64,000 nt of DNA, from positions 1 through 64,000 of the forward strand of contig JANYJP010000130.1 of NCBI GenBank assembly GCA_025358455.1. The letters run 5' to 3'. This DNA comes from Bacteroidales bacterium (GTDB lineage: Bacteria > Bacteroidota > Bacteroidia > Bacteroidales > VadinHA17). Positions 4,443-52,223 of the stretch are shown here, piece after piece. The translations under genes and the position numbers were made by a program. Below the pieces are notes generated by a model, which made no database searches, was not told the origin of the DNA, and saw only the letters and a program-made list of their open reading frames with translations. Positions within the stretch are counted from its first letter, which is position 1; every line of letters begins with the position of its first letter.

Positions 4443-7079
4443 CTACTTTAATCCAAACCGGTAACTGAATTTAACAAGGAATACATTATGAGGCTTATTA
4501 TCGGAGGTATTAAATAGGCCACCAAGGTCGTTAAACAGATTCAGATTTCCGGCATCTGTTGAACTGCTTCTGGTCTGGCTCCAGACAAGGAATACAGAAG
4601 CTCCCGGACTATATTCCCATCTGACAACAAGATTGGAAAGAAATTCGCGTACATTAAAATCTGTTTTATTGAATGAGTAATCAGTTATCCCGTCTGCATT
4701 TTCATCGATATTATATTGATTTCCGGCGAATGTTATCTCCTGCCGGGTAAACGTGTGGAATCGGTCGCGGTAATTACTTGCCATCGGGTCAGTTATATAT
4801 TTATGGTCATAGTATTTCCCTGTTGCAATAAAAGGTTGTCCCCAGTACTGAAGAGTAAGATTCGGACTAAGGTTGAGATTTACCCTGAACGAAGTATTGA
4901 TGGTCTTCTGATCGATACTGGCAAAAAGGTATCGGTCATTACCGTTATACATGATTTTAGCAACATATTGAAGATCAGAGAATGATTTGTTGAATCCGGG
5001 ACTAATTGTAACTGACAGGTAATTTATTGGTTTATAAGTTAATCCAACCGATGCAGATAATTTTTTTGAATTATTAAGAAGACCTCTTGATCCATTAAAA
5101 GAGAAATCAAAAACCAGCTTTTTACGACTGTCTGTAGAGAAACCAAAACGCGGACTGATATTTCCGGGTAGTTTCATTTTTGGTCCGCCCCTGAGAATTC
5201 CTGTTGAAATGGATGAAGTGCTTAAGCTCCCTCCAGTCCATGCATTCCAGAAATTTTTAAAATTCATACTTGCATTCCATTCATATCCGTTAGCAATCCA
5301 GTCACCACCCATGTTATAGGCTGTATAGAAATCTGAGTTTAAGTTAAATCTTTTGTAAATTCCTTTGGGTTCCCACTGGTTATATCCTGCCCAGAGGACT
5401 GATATGATCTGATCGGCTTCGCGCAGATAACCGAGGTCATTAGTTTCAAAACCCGGAGTCTTCCAGAGAGTGGCGCTCATGAAATTCCAATGGCCGTTTA
5501 ATTTTTGTATTTGCATCCTTCCGCCTGATCCGGCAAGCGATGTCCGGTTGGTGTCAAGAACTGTATAATTATTATCAGGTCGCTGGAAGTAATGTGCTGA
5601 AGACTCCTTAGTATTCAGAATTGCTTTTCTGGAACCTTCAACAAGACTAAAAGCTGCGTTAAGGTTAAACATCCAGTTTTTATTCTTGAAGTATTGAGTA
5701 AAGTCAGCTCCACCAGTGTATGCTGCCTTATGCATGAAGTTGCTCAGATTTGCATCAAGTACTCTGTTTGTACTTGTAAAGATCCCTCCGATAATTGTAT
5801 TGCCCTCTTTAAGATCTTTTTGCACCCGGCCGATAAAGTAGTTTGTAAGAGGTTCAACAGTCTTCAGCTTCCTTCCACCTAATGTGTCAATTTCAGCTTT
5901 CTCTTCGGCTGTCATAGCTTCTACAATTCCTATTGAAAGTCCGTTCTGTGTTTTACCCGTTAACTTGGCAGCCCCCAGTATTGTAGTATTTGTTGGAACC
6001 CTGGCATTCCATCCTTCTTTCAAATTGAGATCTGCCTGCGGTCGGCGTCCTATCCTTCTTGAATAAAACAGATTATCGTTTCCGATACCCCCATCACCAA
6101 TTCCGAGTCCAAAGTTTGTAATATTGTTTCCTTCAATAAAAAACGGACGCTTTTCGCTGAAGAAAGTCTCATAGGCCGTAAGATTAACCTGAGAGGGATC
6201 GGCTTCAACCTGACCAAAGTCGGGATTAATCGTCAGGTCCATTGTCATGTTGTTTGTGACGCCTATTTTGGCATCAATACCTCCACTCAATTTTGAGAGT
6301 TTACCAGAGGCCCGGAATGGATTTTCGGGTTCTGCCTTAAATGTTTCAGTCTTAGCCACGGCATAAGGTGTTACATCAAATATCTTCCTGGGTTTGATTT
6401 GCTCAAGACCAGATAATTCTCCGAATAAATGAATGAGTCCCGGAGCATCTTTAGGAATATGTTGCCAGAAATCAGTTTCGTTTTTCCGGTAGTATAGTCT
6501 TGCCATATTAAGTCCCCAGACAGAGCCTGAATTTTTTTCAAACCTTAGCTGGCTGAAAGGGATTTTCATCTCAGCTATCCAGCCCTCGCTGTTCAGGGAT
6601 GTTTTAACCCACCAGTTAGGCTCCCAGGAAGGATCCTGATTCTGACCATCATTTGTATACATCTGGTCATATTTTACACCGGAAGAACTTACTCCGAAAA
6701 GAAAAGCAGTTCGCAGATCATGAAAACTGTCCAGGAATATTCCAACGAGATCCCCATCAGTATCATCACGTCTTGTTAAACGGTTTACAATACTGTCAGG
6801 ACTGGAATCAAATGCTTTAATGCCTACATATAGGTTGTCATCATCAAATAGTATTTTGAACTCGGTCCTTTGGGTAGCAGATTTTCCATTATATGGTTCA
6901 TTTTGAGTGAAATCATCTACCCAGCTGCCTTCTTTCCATACCTCATCATCAAGAATTCCATTTATAACAGGAGGAGCTGTTATCCGGGTTGCCTTGTACT
7001 GTTTCCTTTCAATTGTCTGTCCGTTTACTCCTGAAATAATCAGAAACAACAATAATCCAGAGAATAAAATTCTTTTCAT
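4443..7079 (-). CDS. DUF5916 outer-membrane protein with CBM9-like N-terminus
   Basis: An 878-residue protein with a signal peptide (about 1-20). Residues about 25-220 resemble the carbohydrate-binding family 9-like domain (INGILDDEVWKE, LYVGIKAFDSSP, WIAEMKIPFSQLRF). The remainder is a DUF5916 region with many alternating aromatic/polar strands that reads as a large outer-membrane beta-barrel, ending FLVKFSYRFGLK. Members are common in Bacteroidota and are usually annotated only as hypothetical or hydrolase-associated, so the ligand is unknown. It is monocistronic, with a strong terminator directly downstream. The length is typical of the family. Confidence 0.85.
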   Translation of the reverse strand: MKRILFSGLLLFLIISGVNGQTIERKQYKATRITAPPVINGILDDEVWKEGSWVDDFTQNEPYNGKSATQRTEFKILFDDDNLYVGIKAFDSSPDSIVNRLTRRDDTDGDLVGIFLDSFHDLRTAFLFGVSSSGVKYDQMYTNDGQNQDPSWEPNWWVKTSLNSEGWIAEMKIPFSQLRFEKNSGSVWGLNMARLYYRKNETDFWQHIPKDAPGLIHLFGELSGLEQIKPRKIFDVTPYAVAKTETFKAEPENPFRASGKLSKLSGGIDAKIGVTNNMTMDLTINPDFGQVEADPSQVNLTAYETFFSEKRPFFIEGNNITNFGLGIGDGGIGNDNLFYSRRIGRRPQADLNLKEGWNARVPTNTTILGAAKLTGKTQNGLSIGIVEAMTAEEKAEIDTLGGRKLKTVEPLTNYFIGRVQKDLKEGNTIIGGIFTSTNRVLDANLSNFMHKAAYTGGADFTQYFKNKNWMFNLNAAFSLVEGSRKAILNTKESSAHYFQRPDNNYTVLDTNRTSLAGSGGRMQIQKLNGHWNFMSATLWKTPGFETNDLGYLREADQIISVLWAGYNQWEPKGIYKRFNLNSDFYTAYNMGGDWIANGYEWNASMNFKNFWNAWTGGSLSTSSISTGILRGGPKMKLPGNISPRFGFSTDSRKKLVFDFSFNGSRGLLNNSKKLSASVGLTYKPINYLSVTISPGFNKSFSDLQYVAKIMYNGNDRYLFASIDQKTINTSFRVNLNLSPNLTLQYWGQPFIATGKYYDHKYITDPMASNYRDRFHTFTRQEITFAGNQYNIDENADGITDYSFNKTDFNVREFLSNLVVRWEYSPGASVFLVWSQTRSSSTDAGNLNLFNDLGGLFNTSDNKPHNVFLVKFSYRFGLK

Positions 7080-42235: not shown

Positions 42236-43468
42236 TTACCATTTGAGGTTACCAAGTCTTTCCATAGCTTTTAACACGTTTTCATACGTGGCGAATGAAG
42301 AAAACCTGAAGTATCCTTCACCGGAGGGGCCGAAACCTGATCCTGGCGTACCTATCACATAAGCTTCCCGCATAAGTTTATCAAACAGATCCCACGATTT
42401 TATTCCCCTGCCTGAATTAGCCCAGACATATGGAGCATTAACTCCACCATAAACCTTAAAGCCAAGTCTGGACAGACTTTCGCGCAAGATCCTGGCATTA
42501 TTCATATAGTAATTAATAGTAGTTCTCACCTCTTTTTTTCCTTCAGATGTATAGATAGCAGCAGCGGCTTTTTGTACAGGGTAAGAAACGCCGTTGAACT
42601 TTGTGGTATGCCTCCTGTACCAGAGCGGGTTCAGGTATTTTTCTGAACCAGCTGAAGTTGTAGCAACAAGATTTTTAGGAATAACCATATAGGCACAGCG
42701 TGTTCCTGTAAACCCTGCCGTTTTTGAAAAACTGCGGAATTCAATAGCTACTTCTCTGGCTCCTTCAATTTCATATATTGAATGTGGAATTTCAGGGTCA
42801 GAAATATATGCCTCATAGGCTGAATCGTAAAGTATGATTGCTTTATTTTTAATTGCATAATCAACCCATTTTTTTAACTCATATTTGCTAGCTGTTGTTC
42901 CTGTGGGATTGTTAGGGAAGCAAAGGAAGATAATATCAACTTTCTTATCCGGAACTGCAGGGATAAAACCATTTTCAGCATTACAGGGCAGGTATACCAG
43001 CCCGCCGTAGTAGCCGTTTCCCAGGTATTCACCGGTCCGGCCTGCCATCACACTTGTATCGACATATACAGGATAAACAGGGTCCTGCATGGCTATGACA
43101 TTATTCAGGCCAAAGATCTCCAGAATATTGCCAGTATCACATTTTGAACCATCTGAAACGAAAATCTCGTCTGCATGTATATCAGCACCGCGATCCTGAT
43201 AGTCGTTTTTTGAAATAGCTTCGCGCAGAAAATCATACCCTTGCTCAGGACCGTATCCTTTAAATGTTTCGGCTTTCGACATTTCTTCCACACCTTCATG
43301 AAAGGCACGGATTACTGAAGGTGTAAGGGGCTGCGTCACATCTCCTATCCCCATCTTGATAATGTCGGCCTGTGGATGCTCTTTCTGAAATTCATGAACC
43401 CTCCGTCCTATTTCAGGGAATAGATAACCGGCCTGAAGTTTAAAATAATTTTCGTTAATCTGCGCCAT
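42236..43468 (-). CDS. dapL: LL-diaminopimelate aminotransferase
   Basis: A 410-residue PLP enzyme that converts tetrahydrodipicolinate directly to LL-diaminopimelate, bypassing the succinylase route. It has the fold-type I marks: [14 protein letters not shown] and [15 protein letters not shown] at the start, [19 protein letters not shown], and the PLP lysine in [17 protein letters not shown]. The length of about 410 and the [12 protein letters not shown] segment are specific to DapL. It is divergent from the dapF homologue. The two would together give meso-diaminopimelate for peptidoglycan and lysine. Confidence 0.95.
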
Positions 43469-43757
43469 TTTTATATTTTTGACGTAAATATATTAAAGAT
43501 ATTATTCTCCATTAAACAATGAATTATATTTATTCCACTGTTAGCTGTGAAAAGCAGTTTTTTGGCAATACTGATCCTGTTCAATTATCAGAAATAATCG
43601 GAACTCAGCTCTGCGTATATAACGAAAATATTCTCCGAAATCGAAGCCGTGATCTGAAAGGATTTATTTCTTATTCAAATTTAATGGTCAATTATTCACC
43701 TGGGCACACAGTAATCTGGAACTTCATATTTTAAAAAACCGACTATATAAGTTAGTG

Positions 43758-44636
43758 ATGGAAAAAAACAGTTTTGTCAAGATGCATGGATTGGGCAATG
43801 AATATATTGTCCTGGAGAGCACAAATATAGATTTCGAACTTTCAAAACAGGCTATAATGCGTTTGTGCAACATCCATTTCGGGATCGGCTCGGATGGCAT
43901 AGTTTTGAAAGTTCCGTCGGCAAAAGCTGATTTTGGTTTCAGGGTTTTCAACCCCGATGGATCGGAAGCTGAAAAAAGCGGAAATGGACTTCGTATATTT
44001 TGTAAGTATCTCTATGATTATGGTCATGCCAGGATCAGGCAATTTTCTGTTGAAACACTTACTGATATTGTTTATGCCGATATCGTTGAAGAGCACAAAG
44101 GGAAAGCAATGTTGATCAGGGTGGATATGGGAAATGCAATCTTTGCATCACACGCTATCCCGGTAAATTCGGATCAACCGGAATTTATCGGACAAAAAAT
44201 AATGGCAGGCGATAAAGAATTTGAAGTGAATTGTGTTTCAGTCGGCAATCCGCATTGTGTTGTTATAAAACAGGAGCTGGATGAGAAAGAAATCCGCACC
44301 TACGGTCCTTTACTGGAAAATCATCCATTGTTTCCCAACCGTATCAACGTGCAATTTGCCAGGGTGCTTTCCGATCATGATGCAGAGATTCTGATATGGG
44401 AGCGGGGAGCCGGGTTCACCCTGGCATCAGGCAGTTCATCCTGTGCAGCATCATGCATTCTGATCAAAAGAGGCCTTATCAAAAGCGATCTTACAATGCA
44501 TATGCAGGGGGGAACACTGAAAATACAGGTCGATAAAAACTGGAATATCCACATGACAGGCGAAGTACGCGAAATCGCCAGAGGAGTTCTGGGAATTGAA
44601 CTGTTGGAAGATCTGAACAAACCTTTTGCAGGTTGA
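43758..44636 (+). CDS. dapF: diaminopimelate epimerase homologue with both catalytic Cys replaced by Ser
   Basis: 292 residues from the ATG at 43758 (a GTG one codon earlier is an alternative). Known DapF interconverts LL- and meso-diaminopimelate with two catalytic cysteines, Cys73 and Cys217 in H. influenzae. The fold marks are all present: VKMHGLGNEYIV, HFGIGSDGIV, FNPDGSEAEK, VGNPHCVV and IWERGAGFTLA. But the normal CGNG is SGNG (Ser74, codon AGC at 43977) and the normal ACGTG is ASGSS (Ser224, codon TCA at 44427). Either this is an unusual serine version, or the enzyme has changed activity and a second dapF exists elsewhere. Context next to dapL supports a diaminopimelate role. Confidence 0.85.
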   Translation: MEKNSFVKMHGLGNEYIVLESTNIDFELSKQAIMRLCNIHFGIGSDGIVLKVPSAKADFGFRVFNPDGSEAEKSGNGLRIFCKYLYDYGHARIRQFSVETLTDIVYADIVEEHKGKAMLIRVDMGNAIFASHAIPVNSDQPEFIGQKIMAGDKEFEVNCVSVGNPHCVVIKQELDEKEIRTYGPLLENHPLFPNRINVQFARVLSDHDAEILIWERGAGFTLASGSSSCAASCILIKRGLIKSDLTMHMQGGTLKIQVDKNWNIHMTGEVREIARGVLGIELLEDLNKPFAG

Positions 44637-44985: not shown

Positions 44986-45750
44986 ATGAGTAAATTTATC
45001 TATTTAACAGCAACTCCCGAAGCATTGATCGCTTCTATGCTTCCCCCGGCAGAATTTGGTGCCTATCTTTCAACCGGGACAAAAAAAAGAAATAAGGGTC
45101 AGGCATTATTCTTTGAAGTTGACCTTGGTCATATTGAGAAACTAATTGATATGGATAGCCTGAATCGACGATGTGTTGCGAAAGCTGATGGCAAACCCAA
45201 AAGCTCGGTATATCTTTCAGTTTACAGAGTACTTGAGACAATACCATTGTCGGCCCTTAAGAGTTTATATCTTACCACCGATAATGGTAATACACATGAG
45301 TTGAAGAAATCTCCTTATGATCTTTCAAGGGAAATAACAGGCAAGCTGCATCTTTTCCAGGAGTTATTACCAGTAAACCCATTGGTTGCAACCGAATTAC
45401 CACCATCAGTATTCCTGAAGAAGCTGACGGACGGATCAACTCCCATTGTTCTTCCCAAACTTTTTTTTGTTGATCTGAAGCTGGGAGAACTGGCAACTAA
45501 CCCTGCTAAAGGGCAAATTGAAAATTTACCTTATTCCAACATCGGTCACCTTCGAGACTGTCTGGAAATTTTAAAAGGTGAATATGAAAAACATATGAAG
45601 ACAGTTCAGCGAGTTTATTCCGGTTCACTTCTCTACAGAACAATTGAAAGTGGATTCTATGTTGGTTCAAAAGATGAAATAATCTTTTACCGGTACCCCG
45701 ATATGGAAGAGCTGGAAAACAATAATTATGAATTTTTTAGATCTATATAG
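44986..45750 (+). CDS. conserved-looking protein of unknown function
   Basis: A 254-residue soluble protein without signal peptide or membrane segment; I do not recognise a family. It starts SKFIYLTATPEALIASMLPP and has a GAYLSTGTKKRNKGQALFFEVD segment. The middle has an LSVYRVLETIPLSALKSLYL helix, and the C-terminal half repeats an ILPKLFFVDLKLGEL-type strand-helix pattern. Codon use looks like its neighbours. Two good promoters precede it. The K+-independent pyrophosphatase gene begins 28 nt downstream with no terminator between, so the two are probably co-transcribed and may be functionally linked. Confidence 0.8.
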   Translation: MSKFIYLTATPEALIASMLPPAEFGAYLSTGTKKRNKGQALFFEVDLGHIEKLIDMDSLNRRCVAKADGKPKSSVYLSVYRVLETIPLSALKSLYLTTDNGNTHELKKSPYDLSREITGKLHLFQELLPVNPLVATELPPSVFLKKLTDGSTPIVLPKLFFVDLKLGELATNPAKGQIENLPYSNIGHLRDCLEILKGEYEKHMKTVQRVYSGSLLYRTIESGFYVGSKDEIIFYRYPDMEELENNNYEFFRSI

Positions 45751-45778: not shown

Positions 45779-48058
45779 ATGGTTAGTTTACCGGGGGCAA
45801 CCTCTTTTGAAGTAATGGCAATCTGGAGTGTATTGGTTATTGCATTTTTCGGACTTGCTTATGCAATGTTTTTGCGCAGACAAGTTATGGCTTGCGATAA
45901 AGGAACAGAAAAAATGCAGGATGTGTGGGATGGGATACGCGTAGGTGCAAATGCTTATCTGAAAAGGCAATTAAAGACTATTGTCCCTCTGATTTTCGTT
46001 TTTACGGTTATCCTCTTTTTATCTGTTTATGTGGTTCCTCCGACTGAGGAATCAAAATTACGTTTTGTTGGTTATTCCGATCAGTCACTTAAGCTGATAA
46101 TCGGTTTTGGCCGGGCGGTAGCATTTATAATGGGTTCCATTTTTTCTTTGATGGTAGGTCAGTTTGGAATGAGAATGGCAGTTCAGGCAAACGTTCGTGT
46201 TGCATCCGCTTCCAGAAGAAGTTTTGCGGAGGCTCTGAAAATTGCCTATCGCGCCGGTACTGTTACAGGAATGCTGACAGATGGCTTAGGATTACTTGGA
46301 GGCACACTCATTTTCATAGTATTCGGTGTTGCATCTCCTGATACTCTTCTCGGATTCGGTTTTGGTGGTACATTACTTGCACTCTTTATGAGAGTGGGAG
46401 GGGGCATTTACACTAAAGCTGCTGACGTTGGAGCTGACCTTGTCGGAAAAGTTGAGGCAGGGCTTCCTGAGGATGATGAACGTAATGCTGCAGTAATTGC
46501 TGACCTTGTTGGAGATAATGTTGGTGATTGTGCCGGTATGGCAGCTGATATCTTTGAATCTTATGAAGTTACAATTGTTTCAGCATTAATACTTGGTGTT
46601 GTATTATTTACACAAACGCATGAACTGTCATGGATCATTTTCCCACTTCTTGTCAGAGGTATTGGAGTTCTTTCTTCAATAATAGGTACTTACCTGGTAA
46701 AAGGAGGGAAAGAAGCAAATGCAAATAATGCTCTTAAGGCAATTAACAAAGGATTCTATTCCTCAGCTGCAATAAGCATTGCTGCATTCGGAATACTTGC
46801 ATATTTCTATCTTGGAGAATGGCGTTCGTTTCTTTCAGTTGTGGTTGGTATCCTTTTAGCAATTGTACTTGATGAAATAACAAAACACTATACTGACGGT
46901 CATTATCACCCTGTTAAGGATATCGCGAAGAATGCAAAGACAGGTTCCGCAACTCTGTTATTAAAAGGTATGAGTTATGGATTTGAAGTTGCAGTATGGC
47001 AGACCTTAGTTATTGCAACTACAATCTTTGCTTCTGTTATGATCTATTATGGTCAGCCAATAACGTATGTGCTTTATGGTGTTGCTATGACCGGGATTGG
47101 GATGCTTACGCTGACCGGGAACAACGTGGCCATGGATGCTTTTGGTCCAATTGCTGATAATGCGAATGGGATCGGAGAATTGTCTCATCTGGACAAAGAT
47201 GCACGTAAGATTATGGATGCACTTGACGCAACAGGAAATACTACCAAAGCTATTACTAAAGGTGTCGCGATCGGATCAGCAGTAATTGCAGCTGTGGCAT
47301 TATTTGGATCTTTCATTACAGATGTGACTAAAGTTCAGATTCAGATGGGATTTGAAAAAACAGCACAATTGCTCGAAACCGGAATCCGCGTATCTGTACC
47401 GATGGTTTTTATCGGATTACTTATAGGTGGAACTATCCCTTTTCTATTCTCATCATTGTCAATCAGTGCGGTTACACGTGCTGCCGCCGAGATTGTAGAA
47501 GAAGTTCGTCGTCAGTTCAGAATACCCGGTATTATTGAACGTACAGTAAAACCAGATTATCAAAAAGCTGTTGATATTTGTACTGTTTCAGCTCAAAGAG
47601 AACTAATTCCATTGGCCTTAATCGCCGTATTGTCTCCAATATTTGTAGGATCTCTTCTTGGTGTTGAGGCCTTAGGTGGGTTCCTTGCCGGAGTGATTCT
47701 TTCGGGGCAGTTACTTGCAGTCTTCATGGCAAGTGCCGGTGGCGCCTGGGATAATGCCAAAAAAACTATTGAGGACGGACTTTATGGTGGAAAAGGCTCT
47801 GATGCTCATCATGCAGCTGTTGTTGGTGACACTGTTGGCGATCCGCTAAAAGATACTGCCGGACCAGCACTTAACCCAATGATAAAGGTTATAAACCTGG
47901 TTTCACTTTTGGCCGCTCCTGTAATTATTGCATATCAGATACCGGGGCATACATCTTTAGGTATGTTTATAACAGGTGCGATCTGCCTTTTAATTATAGT
48001 TGGAGCAATTACATTCTCTAAGAGAGGTGGTTTTAAAAAAATACCTTTCGAAGCTTAA
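45779..48058 (+). CDS. hppA: membrane-bound pyrophosphatase, K+-independent type (H+-pumping)
   Basis: A 759-residue inner-membrane pump with about sixteen helices that couples PPi hydrolysis to cation export. The PPi/Mg-binding motifs are [32 protein letters not shown] and the C-terminal GDTVGDPLKDTAGPALN. In the diagnostic GNTT motif it has Lys490 and Thr493 (GNTTKAIT), the signature of K+-independent H+-PPases; K+-dependent ones have Ala and Gly. Proton as the pumped ion follows from that class. It lies 28 nt after the unknown gene and ends at a strong terminator. A second, K+-dependent paralogue is at 49923. Confidence 0.93.
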   Translation: MVSLPGATSFEVMAIWSVLVIAFFGLAYAMFLRRQVMACDKGTEKMQDVWDGIRVGANAYLKRQLKTIVPLIFVFTVILFLSVYVVPPTEESKLRFVGYSDQSLKLIIGFGRAVAFIMGSIFSLMVGQFGMRMAVQANVRVASASRRSFAEALKIAYRAGTVTGMLTDGLGLLGGTLIFIVFGVASPDTLLGFGFGGTLLALFMRVGGGIYTKAADVGADLVGKVEAGLPEDDERNAAVIADLVGDNVGDCAGMAADIFESYEVTIVSALILGVVLFTQTHELSWIIFPLLVRGIGVLSSIIGTYLVKGGKEANANNALKAINKGFYSSAAISIAAFGILAYFYLGEWRSFLSVVVGILLAIVLDEITKHYTDGHYHPVKDIAKNAKTGSATLLLKGMSYGFEVAVWQTLVIATTIFASVMIYYGQPITYVLYGVAMTGIGMLTLTGNNVAMDAFGPIADNANGIGELSHLDKDARKIMDALDATGNTTKAITKGVAIGSAVIAAVALFGSFITDVTKVQIQMGFEKTAQLLETGIRVSVPMVFIGLLIGGTIPFLFSSLSISAVTRAAAEIVEEVRRQFRIPGIIERTVKPDYQKAVDICTVSAQRELIPLALIAVLSPIFVGSLLGVEALGGFLAGVILSGQLLAVFMASAGGAWDNAKKTIEDGLYGGKGSDAHHAAVVGDTVGDPLKDTAGPALNPMIKVINLVSLLAAPVIIAYQIPGHTSLGMFITGAICLLIIVGAITFSKRGGFKKIPFEA

Positions 48059-49922: not shown

Positions 49923-52223
49923 ATGATTAGTAACCTATTCTGGATCGTTCCGATTTCAGCACTCATGGCATTACTCTTCGCCTGGATCTTTTACAAAGGC
50001 ATGAAACTTCAGGATGAAGGAACAGATAAGATGAAAGAGATTGCCGAATATGTGAGGGAAGGTGCAATGGCCTACCTGAAAAGCCAGTACACAGTTGTCG
50101 GCAAGATATTTGTAGTTCTTGTTGTACTTTTATCAATATTGGCATATATGGGTGTACAGAACCCATTTGTTCCGGTAGCCTTCCTGACCGGAGGTATCTT
50201 CTCAGGTCTATGCGGTTATCTTGGAATGAAAACTGCAACTTTTGCATCTAACAGAACAGCCTGGGCTGCCTCTAAATCACTCAACAAAGGATTACAGGTA
50301 GCTCTTCGCAGTGGAGCAGTTATGGGCCTTGTTGTTGTTGGATTCGCGCTCCTCGACATTGCAGCCTGGTTCGTTTTCCTGACTAAAGTTGTATTTACGC
50401 CGGAACATATGGTTTCCGGATTAAATTTCTTAGGTCTTAACTTTGTTCAGGCAGGAATTGATGAGCATCAGAAATTTGTTGAGATTACTGCAACAATGAT
50501 CACTTTCGGTATGGGTGCCTCAACACAGGCCCTTTTTGCACGTGTTGGTGGTGGTATCTTTACAAAAGCTGCTGACGTAGGCGCTGACCTTGTTGGTAAA
50601 GTAGAAGCTGGAATTCCTGAGGACGATCCACGTAACCCTGCAACAATTGCTGATAACGTTGGTGACAACGTAGGTGACGTTGCCGGTATGGGCGCTGACC
50701 TTTATGAATCATATGCAGGTTCTATTCTTTCTACTGCTGCACTCGGTGCTGCTCTTCCAATGATTGCTGGACAAAGTGGTGATTATCAGATTAAAGCTAT
50801 TATTGCTCCCATGGTGGTTTCAGCTATCGGGATCCTATTATCAATTGCCGGAATATATATGGTCAGAACAAAAGAGTCGGCTTCGCAGAAGACTCTTCTA
50901 AGGGCACTTTTACTGGGAACAGGTGGAAGTTCTTCTCTTATTCTTGTTGTACTTGCTGTTATGGCCGCTGCAGACTGGATTACCTGGGGCGTATTCGGCG
51001 CTGCAGTATCAGGTTTGGTAGCAGGCGTAATTATAGGGCAGGCAACAGAATATTATACTTCTGATGGCTATAAACCTACACAAGGTATAGCAGAACAATC
51101 TCAGACAGGACCGGCAACTGTAATTATTGAAGGTATGGCAGTGGGTATGTTCTCAACATGGCTTCCTGTTCTGACAATAGTTGCTGGTATCATTGCCGCT
51201 TATGGTTTTGCAGGGGGATTCCATAACTTCCCGATGGGTGTTTATGGTATCGGTTTCGCATCTGTCGGTATGCTCTCAACACTTGGAGTAACTCTGGCAA
51301 CTGATGCTTTCGGACCCATTGCCGATAACGCTGGTGGAAATGCTGAAATGGCAGGATTACCTGAAGAAGTAAGAGAAAGAACAGATGCTCTTGACGGACT
51401 TGGAAACACAACAGCTGCTACCGGCAAAGGTTTCGCTATTGGTTCAGCAGCTCTTACTGCACTTGCTCTTGTTGCTGCTTATATGGAGGAGGTAAAACTC
51501 TGGCTTGGAAGACTTGCTGACAAGAGTGTTGATGGTTATAAGCAAATCGGTGATGTTTTGTTTTATCATAGTCATGTACCGGCAACTGTTCAGGCTGGTC
51601 AACAGGCAATTGAAGTATCACACGCGGGAGTTAAAGATTTTGTTTTGGCCTATAACCTTTCACTCTTCAACCCAATATTAATTGCAGGTCTTTTCATCGG
51701 AGCAATGATGTGTTTTGTATTTGTTGCAATGGCTATGAAAGCTGTTGGAAGGAATGCAGGAAGAATGGTTGACGAAGTAAGACGTCAGTTCCGTGAAATT
51801 CCGGGCATTATGGAAGGCACAGGAAGACCGGAATATGCAAAATGTGTTGCAATTGCAACTAAAGGCGCCCAGAAAGAAATGATCATGCCTGCACTTATGG
51901 CAATTATAGTACCTGTTGTTACAGGTATCGTTTTTGGTGTACCAGGCGTTATCGGGTTGTTGATGGGCGGTATGACTACTGGTTTTACTTTAGCCAGTAT
52001 GCTTAACAATTCAGGTGGTGCATGGGATAATGCTAAAAAATACATTGAAAGAGGAAATTATGGCGGCAAGAAAAGCGAATGCCATAAAGCAAGTATTGTT
52101 GGAGATACCGTAGGTGATCCGTTTAAAGATACATGCGGCCCATCAATGAATATCCTGATTAAACTTATGTCAATGGTTGCCGTCGTTATGGCCGGTGTTA
52201 CTGTCGCCTGGAGTCTCTTCTAG
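49923..52223 (+). CDS. hppA: membrane-bound pyrophosphatase, K+-dependent type (probably Na+- or Na+/H+-pumping)
   Basis: A 766-residue paralogue of the pump at 45779. It has [42 protein letters not shown] and [17 protein letters not shown]. The diagnostic motif is GNTTAATG with Ala498 and Gly501, which marks the K+-dependent class. The glutamate in the ESYAGS helix sits where Na+-PPases carry it. Na+ pumping is therefore likely, and dual Na+/H+ pumping is known from a Bacteroides member; sequence alone does not settle which. It is monocistronic with its own terminator. Confidence 0.93.

Follow-up and report, generated by a model that had tools for sequence, protein, structure and literature searches.

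A diaminopimelate epimerase homologue with serine at both catalytic cysteine positions, apparently from an old and widespread Ser/Ser branch of DapF

The gene P0001, which encodes 292 amino acids plus a stop at positions 43758-44636 (forward strand) of a 64,000-nucleotide stretch of Bacteroidales DNA (the window), specifies a homologue of the diaminopimelate (DAP) epimerase DapF in which both catalytic cysteines are replaced by serine. Judged from sequence comparisons, P0001 belongs to an apparently old, widespread Ser/Ser branch of DapF, a clade sister to ordinary Cys/Cys DapF, and is probably a functional, cofactor-independent DAP epimerase. Cys/Cys DapF works via a thiolate/thiol pair, and the Ser/Ser form, if a working enzyme, would break the rule that DapF chemistry needs a pair of cysteines. 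Whether Ser74 and Ser224 would themselves be the real acid/base pair is a separate matter, for which we judge the case to be about evenly balanced.

The reading frame of P0001 contains no internal stop, and its ATG start at 43758 is consistent with close relatives (the mechanical ORF list begins one codon earlier, at GTG). TIGR00652, the curated equivalog model for DapF, matches P0001 at 233.2 bits (3.6e-69; cut-off 114.65) and so labels it an ordinary DapF, a point that bears on annotation. At E up to 0.001, the only Pfam match is DAP_epimerase, with no proline racemase family, and the only NCBIfam matches are TIGR00652 and NF038284 (bifunctional DapF/glutamate racemase), the latter far under its cut-off (66.5 vs 350 bits). 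The first site reads NPDGSEAEKSGNG, with Ser74 inside, and the second reads WERGAGFTLASGSSSC, with Ser224 inside. When P0001 is aligned with five solved DapF chains, one of which (2q9j) is a C217S mutant, both serines fall on the catalytic Cys positions, which bears out what the initial annotation had read from the DNA. P0001 has Ser74 and Ser224 where membership of DapF calls for a catalytic Cys/Cys pair and, compared by eye with the PROSITE DapF signature as quoted in PMC8225329, NPDGSEAEKSGNGLR fits except for a Ser in the required Cys place. The two-domain DapF fold is indicated by two PF01678 halves and by an AlphaFold2 model (pLDDT 95.9) in which helices start right after Ser74 and Ser224, at residues 75 and 225. 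The best structural match of the predicted model is 9mro, the closed, inhibitor-bound Anabaena DapF (Z 38.9, 1.9 Å over 272 residues, 34% identity). The features of the locus are as follows.

42236..43468, reverse strand: dapL, LL-diaminopimelate aminotransferase, divergent neighbour (TIGR03542 615 bits, cut-off 364.7)
43469..43757, no strand: dapL-dapF intergenic gap, a place occupied by lysA in six same-genus relatives (L004-L009)
43758..44636, forward strand: Ser/Ser DapF homologue (TIGR00652 233 bits; two PF01678 halves; AF2 pLDDT 95.9; 9mro Z 38.9)
43974..43976, forward strand: Lys73 codon AAA, a residue fixed in Ser/Ser forms and in no others
43977..43979, forward strand: Ser74 codon AGC, replacing the first catalytic Cys (alignment; model helix from residue 75)
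44427..44429, forward strand: Ser224 codon TCA, replacing the second catalytic Cys (alignment; model helix from residue 225)
44433..44438, forward strand: Ser226-Ser227, changed loop at the second site where Cys/Cys DapF has Thr-Gly (conservation counts)

The same serine pair is found in 91 sequences, whose records are labelled with about ten different phyla, within a typed set of 183 that also includes 89 Cys/Cys and 2 Cys/Ser sequences and one split gene (L125, counted apart as '-S'). Rows removed before counting were L001-L003 (copies of the window gene), L064 (identical to L009) and L208, L215, L218 and L219 (same genomes as L126, L137, L138 and L141); alignment A2 is without L094, L095, L098, L121, L142 (listed match runs past a stop), L125, L134 and L140. 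By their labels, the hosts of the Ser/Ser form are Bacteroidota (many Prolixibacteraceae, with Maribellus and Sunxiuqinia among the carriers), Ignavibacteriota, Aquificota, Dadabacteria, Thermodesulfobacteriota, Nitrospirota including Leptospirillum, Chloroflexota, Dictyoglomota, Methylomirabilota, FCPU426 and a few single MAGs; these labels are the records' own, many hosts are MAGs, and the naming of some MAGs is open to doubt. For the scan of named genomes the best 80 loci were kept, which makes the spread a lower bound, and these comprise 66 Ser/Ser, one Cys/Ser (L105), twelve Cys/Cys and one split over two frames (L125). The latter, a same-type dapF at 5001-5778, reflects a sequencing error or a recent break. 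Among 198 drawn genomes of the window's phylum, 29 gave a match at E up to 1e-15 and, the window's own aside, 27 of these are Cys/Cys and one is Ser/Ser (57% identity); the Ser/Ser form is rare in this draw. A search of 80 genomes from the phylum to which the Leptospirillum record is assigned gave matches in 71; loci were read for 30 of these 71, of which 20 are Ser/Ser genomes (four already in the named-genome scan) and 10 are Cys/Cys. The genome G324 carries two genes that are 44% and 43% identical to the query, and the one that was read (L213) is Ser/Ser.

A careful tree was built from 77 hand-picked rows after removal of the trait columns. It separates 53 Ser/Ser plus 2 Cys/Ser sequences from 22 Cys/Cys sequences with support of 100/100, a value that holds against the nearer Cys/Cys DapF only, the far Bacteroidota Cys/Cys rows (L020-L052, L175-L201) being left out. 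A quick tree of 102 rows, which leaves out L001-L003, L125, L118, L065 and 25 of the 33 far Cys/Cys rows of the order, gives the same split (SH-aLRT 99), with eight far Cys/Cys rows on the Cys/Cys side. The Ser/Ser forms do make a clade, as the initial annotation had thought worth checking, though one that extends across many phyla and not Bacteroidota alone. The two Cys/Ser forms, L012 (386-1246) and L105 (5-850), both from Bacteroidales, are nested inside it, and a Ser/Ser side without them is found in 0% of 200 bootstrap trees. Because of this nesting, Cys was seemingly regained at site 1, and such a regain could mean that serine is not optimal there. In 75 Ser/Ser rows Ser74 is encoded by AGY only and Ser224 by TCN only, which fits a single origin with serines that were never left since. 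Taking Cys/Cys as the older state, as it would be in the wider fold (the trees are unrooted), we infer that both serines predate the diversification of the clade and that a single lineage subsequently reverted to Cys at its first site. L105 alone has Ser224 coded by AGT and not TCN, and may have reached its second serine by way of a different residue.

Pairwise identity among the 91 Ser/Ser rows has a median of 51% and is as low as 36.6%. With the DAP contacts mapped from the account of Anabaena DapF in PMC12039745, the equivalent residues N14, N65, G75, N76, N164, N197, E215, R216 and G225 are identical in all 91, and the set gripping DAP at its distal and proximal ends is kept with the sole exception of Thr226, which is Ser. 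The initial annotation had called every other hallmark intact; this stands for the DAP-contacting residues, but not for Thr226, nor for positions 66, 73, 80, 213 and 227 near the catalytic sites. Pro66 is present in 91/91 Ser/Ser sequences, with A, S or C at that position in the 89 Cys/Cys sequences. Lys73, which directly precedes Ser74, is likewise found in 91/91, compared with M (80) or L (9) in Cys/Cys and N in both Cys/Ser sequences. Ile80 (90/91) and Ile213 (91/91) take the place of mostly C and of T/V/S, respectively, in the Cys/Cys set, and the Thr-Gly found in 89/89 Cys/Cys sequences is replaced by Ser226 (89/91, Thr in the other two) and Ser227 (91/91). Common origin alone could explain these shared residues, but less easily their full retention at such divergence. 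According to PMC12039745, the catalytic sulphurs of Anabaena DapF have no basic residue within 4 Å, and the Gly227 backbone NH is in hydrogen-bonding distance of Cys224, which makes a Lys beside the first site and a Ser at 227 pointed differences. The changed residues may tune the serines, with Lys73 as the best candidate for tuning Ser74. An aromatic residue at 220 (Y/F/W for E) was dropped as a Ser/Ser signature, E being found in 11/91 Ser/Ser rows.

A takeover of the catalytic positions by other cysteines, which would have undone the initial annotation, was looked for, and on conservation none seems to have occurred. Among the listed Cys positions only Cys37 is invariant in the 91 Ser/Ser sequences, and this position is C (68), S (20) or T (1) in the Cys/Cys enzymes. 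The remaining stand-ins, C159 (52/91), C167 (78/91) and C229 (82/91), are not fixed in Ser/Ser.

The neighbourhood of P0001 places it in the DAP/lysine pathway, through linkage to dapL and lysA and through co-occurrence. The divergent gene is dapL, as initially annotated, and its relevance to the role of P0001, proposed at the same time, is strengthened by linkage in 8/8 relatives and by the distribution of DapL. The eight genus relatives are 71-90% identical to P0001 and carry the same two serines; six have the gene order dapL, lysA, dapF and two have dapL and dapF adjacent, as in the window. The 36 same-genus genomes, its own included, comprise nine with Ser/Ser DapF, 22 with a far-diverged Cys/Cys DapF (all read) and five without a match to the P0001 query, among which G021 gave a TIGR00652 match (unread) and the other four gave none. 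The two types of DapF are never found together in these 36 genomes, and at the 22 Cys/Cys loci neither dapL nor lysA was seen within the 1.8-3.3 kb read. Window-type DapL (E up to 1e-60) is present in 9/9 Ser/Ser genomes and in 0/27 other typed genomes of the genus, an association with a hypergeometric value of ~1e-8 that is not to be read as a probability, the genomes being related. A DapL search over 58 genomes found it in 15, six of them untyped for DapF. In the named genomes a lysA-cluster gene is found at 20 of 68 Ser loci (among the best 80 loci kept), and two members of this cluster that were tested scored 390 and 275 bits (cut-off 297.9). The gene after dapF encodes an LL-DAP aminotransferase in L078 and a DapC in L135; at Dadabacteria-type loci the downstream gene encodes an amidohydrolase and is not a DAP gene. 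One of the four same-genus genomes without a DapF match (G007, 97% complete) has two Ddh pieces (C163, C247), one of them over cut-off, and Ddh there is a third way to meso-DAP within one genus. Within the genus, one genome of each DapF type has Ddh over cut-off as well, namely G030 (Ser/Ser) and G028 (Cys/Cys).

A Cys/Cys dapF elsewhere in the window's genome, for which the initial annotation had advised a search, was not found; at 95.7% completeness a second copy could have been missed. There was no Ddh match in this genome either. Its best lysA match is on another contig than dapF, and its MurE is of the DAP-adding type (NF001126 616 bits, cut-off 373). A missed second dapF or Ddh is unlikely as a general answer, given the survey of other genomes. 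In 54 of 56 Ser/Ser genomes, the window's own included, no DapF other than a Ser/Ser one was found, the exceptions being G080 and G100, which have an extra Cys/Cys DapF (L144, L146); both Cys/Ser genomes have a single DapF. A match to the lysA model is present in 57 of the 58 Ser/Ser or Cys/Ser genomes, 43 of them over cut-off and 15 of the 57 under it by one tally (some are pieces), with none in G088. Ddh is over cut-off in two of the 58 (G030, G062); weak matches in 15 further genomes, of ~18-34 bits over short N-terminal stretches, were not counted as Ddh. In total, 54 of the 58 genomes have neither a second DapF nor Ddh among the matches found. For genomes reached via named loci completeness is not given and some are partial MAGs, so it is the pattern that counts and not single absences.

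Eight LysA encoded beside Bacteroidota Ser/Ser dapF score 275-298 bits on TIGR01048 (cut-off 297.9), one just over and seven below. These low-scoring LysA (L094 5978-7240; G070, G074, G075, G077, G078, G079, G082, G083) are unlike the LysA of the window's genus or of other phyla.

In the pathway that we propose, DapL would convert tetrahydrodipicolinate to LL-DAP, on which the Ser/Ser DapF would close, gripping it with the usual DapF contacts, and one alpha-carbon would be inverted to yield meso-DAP for LysA and MurE. Ser74 and Ser224, positioned just ahead of the two central helices, would act as the acid/base pair. More tentatively, Lys73 and the Ser226-Ser227 loop might stand in for the thiolate tuning of the Cys enzymes, with Lys73 perhaps aiding deprotonation of Ser74. 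That the whole clade moves alpha-protons by Ser/Ser, aided at one site by the adjacent invariant Lys in a Lys-Ser unit, is a proposition to which we give even weight for and against. The chemistry of bare serines is poor as reported for related enzymes: a single Cys-to-Ser change in PddB leaves <0.1% activity (PMC8225329), Cys-to-Ser mutants of HisR are greatly reduced (PMC11602996), a review favours Cys over Ser or Thr as the base (PMC8142540) and, among enzymes of the proline racemase fold, Ser paired with Thr accompanies dehydration and not epimerisation (PMC4113996). A natural Ser/Cys 4-hydroxyproline epimerase is described as a Ser precedent in the same fold (PMC4113996). Since the pathway says that DAP is epimerised and the chemistry says that bare serines are poor, a pocket rebuilt around the serines would reconcile the two. 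Counted against this explanation are the change of Thr226 to Ser, the Cys/Cys copies L144 and L146, Ddh in G030 and G062, the lysA matches under cut-off, the absence of a lysA match in G088 and the amidohydrolase of Dadabacteria-type loci.

P0001 could also be a DAP epimerase whose proton transfer falls to Lys73, a bound water or some other group, the serines serving only in substrate binding or positioning. The presence of Lys73 in 91/91 Ser/Ser and none of the 89 Cys/Cys sequences would fit, as would the statement in PMC8142540 that a serine hydroxyl is poor at taking an alpha-proton; yet Lys73 could presumably serve one face only, and both serines are kept in 91/91 sequences at the exact Cys positions, each before a helix, as expected of acid/base residues. 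We consider this reading unlikely. Somewhat less probable still is a clade that now catalyses a different reaction (such as an elimination) or acts on a different substrate (some other amino acid), with meso-DAP coming from an unrecognised enzyme. Ser/Thr changes are reported to accompany dehydratases in the proline racemase fold (PMC8142540, PMC4113996), and HisR, which is predicted as DapF, is described as acting on histidine (PMC11602996). Such a shift would have to be squared with the DAP contacts kept, with the linkage to dapL and lysA and with a sole DapF in most genomes searched, accompanied by a lysA match and no Ddh; many phyla would each require an unknown DAP epimerase. The initial annotation had left the choice between a serine epimerase and a new reaction undecided, and the clade, together with the lack of a second dapF among the matches found, favours the serine epimerase.

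The loss of both catalytic cysteines is what a catalytically dead DapF retained for regulation or binding would predict, and PDB titles record E. coli DapF in complex with RppH. It is very improbable here: no other DapF was found in the genome, the gene is under strong purifying selection, and the genomes of the genus carry either Ser/Ser or Cys/Cys DapF. For sequencing or assembly error, or decay, there is the origin of the window in a fragmented draft (142 contigs, 95.7% complete), but the chance is negligible: this reading is refuted by independent assemblies, the same serines occurring in 91 sequences from many separate assemblies with AGY-only Ser74 and TCN-only Ser224 in 75 of them, and dN/dS for P0001 against six same-genus relatives is 0.04-0.08. 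The initial annotation, too, had argued against simple decay. A functional DAP epimerase of the Ser/Ser clade is the reading that we prefer.

Compared with DapF of known structure or family (TIGR00652; 9MRO, 2OTN, 1GQZ), P0001 shares the predicted fold, the length, the two PF01678 halves, the DAP contacts (Thr226 being Ser) and the pathway context, at 24-36% identity to solved DapF in structure matches; it differs in having Ser/Ser for Cys/Cys, K73 for M/L, S226-S227 for T-G, and P66, I80 and I213. The histidine racemases HisR and CntK, and PddB, have a DapF-like fold (PddB by modelling) and, like P0001, are PLP-independent; unlike it, they are Cys/Cys and act on other substrates. The Cys/Thr aspartate/glutamate racemases are of a fold family different from that of DapF. 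In these, one catalytic Cys is naturally a hydroxyl residue, only one being replaced, as described in PMC8142540. Members of the proline racemase superfamily have their overall fold in common with P0001, at 10-16% identity in structure matches, and act on proline-type substrates; according to PMC4113996, 4-hydroxyproline 2-epimerase (Ser/Cys) has a natural Ser at the first catalytic place and is still an epimerase, with one Cys replaced only, t3HypD (Ser/Thr) is a dehydratase, and clusters without one or both Cys are noted. The Ser/Ser clade, as read from its alignments, would go beyond the Ser/Cys and Ser/Thr precedents in that neither cysteine is left. A search of the full-text literature gave, among the matches listed (titles and abstract starts, subscription journals being mostly outside coverage), no description of a natural Ser/Ser DapF.

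Removal of a proton of pKa about 29 by a weak thiolate is a standing puzzle, and the accepted answer, as given in PMC12039745 and PMC8142540, rests on cysteine. A natural Ser/Ser DapF that is the sole DapF found in most Ser/Ser genomes searched would mean either that Ser suffices in the right pocket or that the base is something else. If a Ser/Ser pair does move the alpha-protons, it would be a cysteine-free, presumably oxidant- and thiol-reagent-resistant way to deprotonate an unactivated amino acid. Aziridine inhibitors of DapF attach covalently to the catalytic cysteines. Because Ser/Ser enzymes lack the cysteines that these inhibitors bind, the finding bears on DapF as an antibacterial target.

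Just downstream of dapF, the window contains a 254-residue ORF (44986-45750) with no Pfam match at 1e-5. Two membrane pyrophosphatase genes (45779-48058 and 49923-52223; PF03030, 815 and 864 bits) flank an ExbB/ExbD-like pair. The motif GNTTKAITKG is present in one pyrophosphatase and altered in the other, a difference that we take to be the mark of K+-independent versus K+-dependent types.
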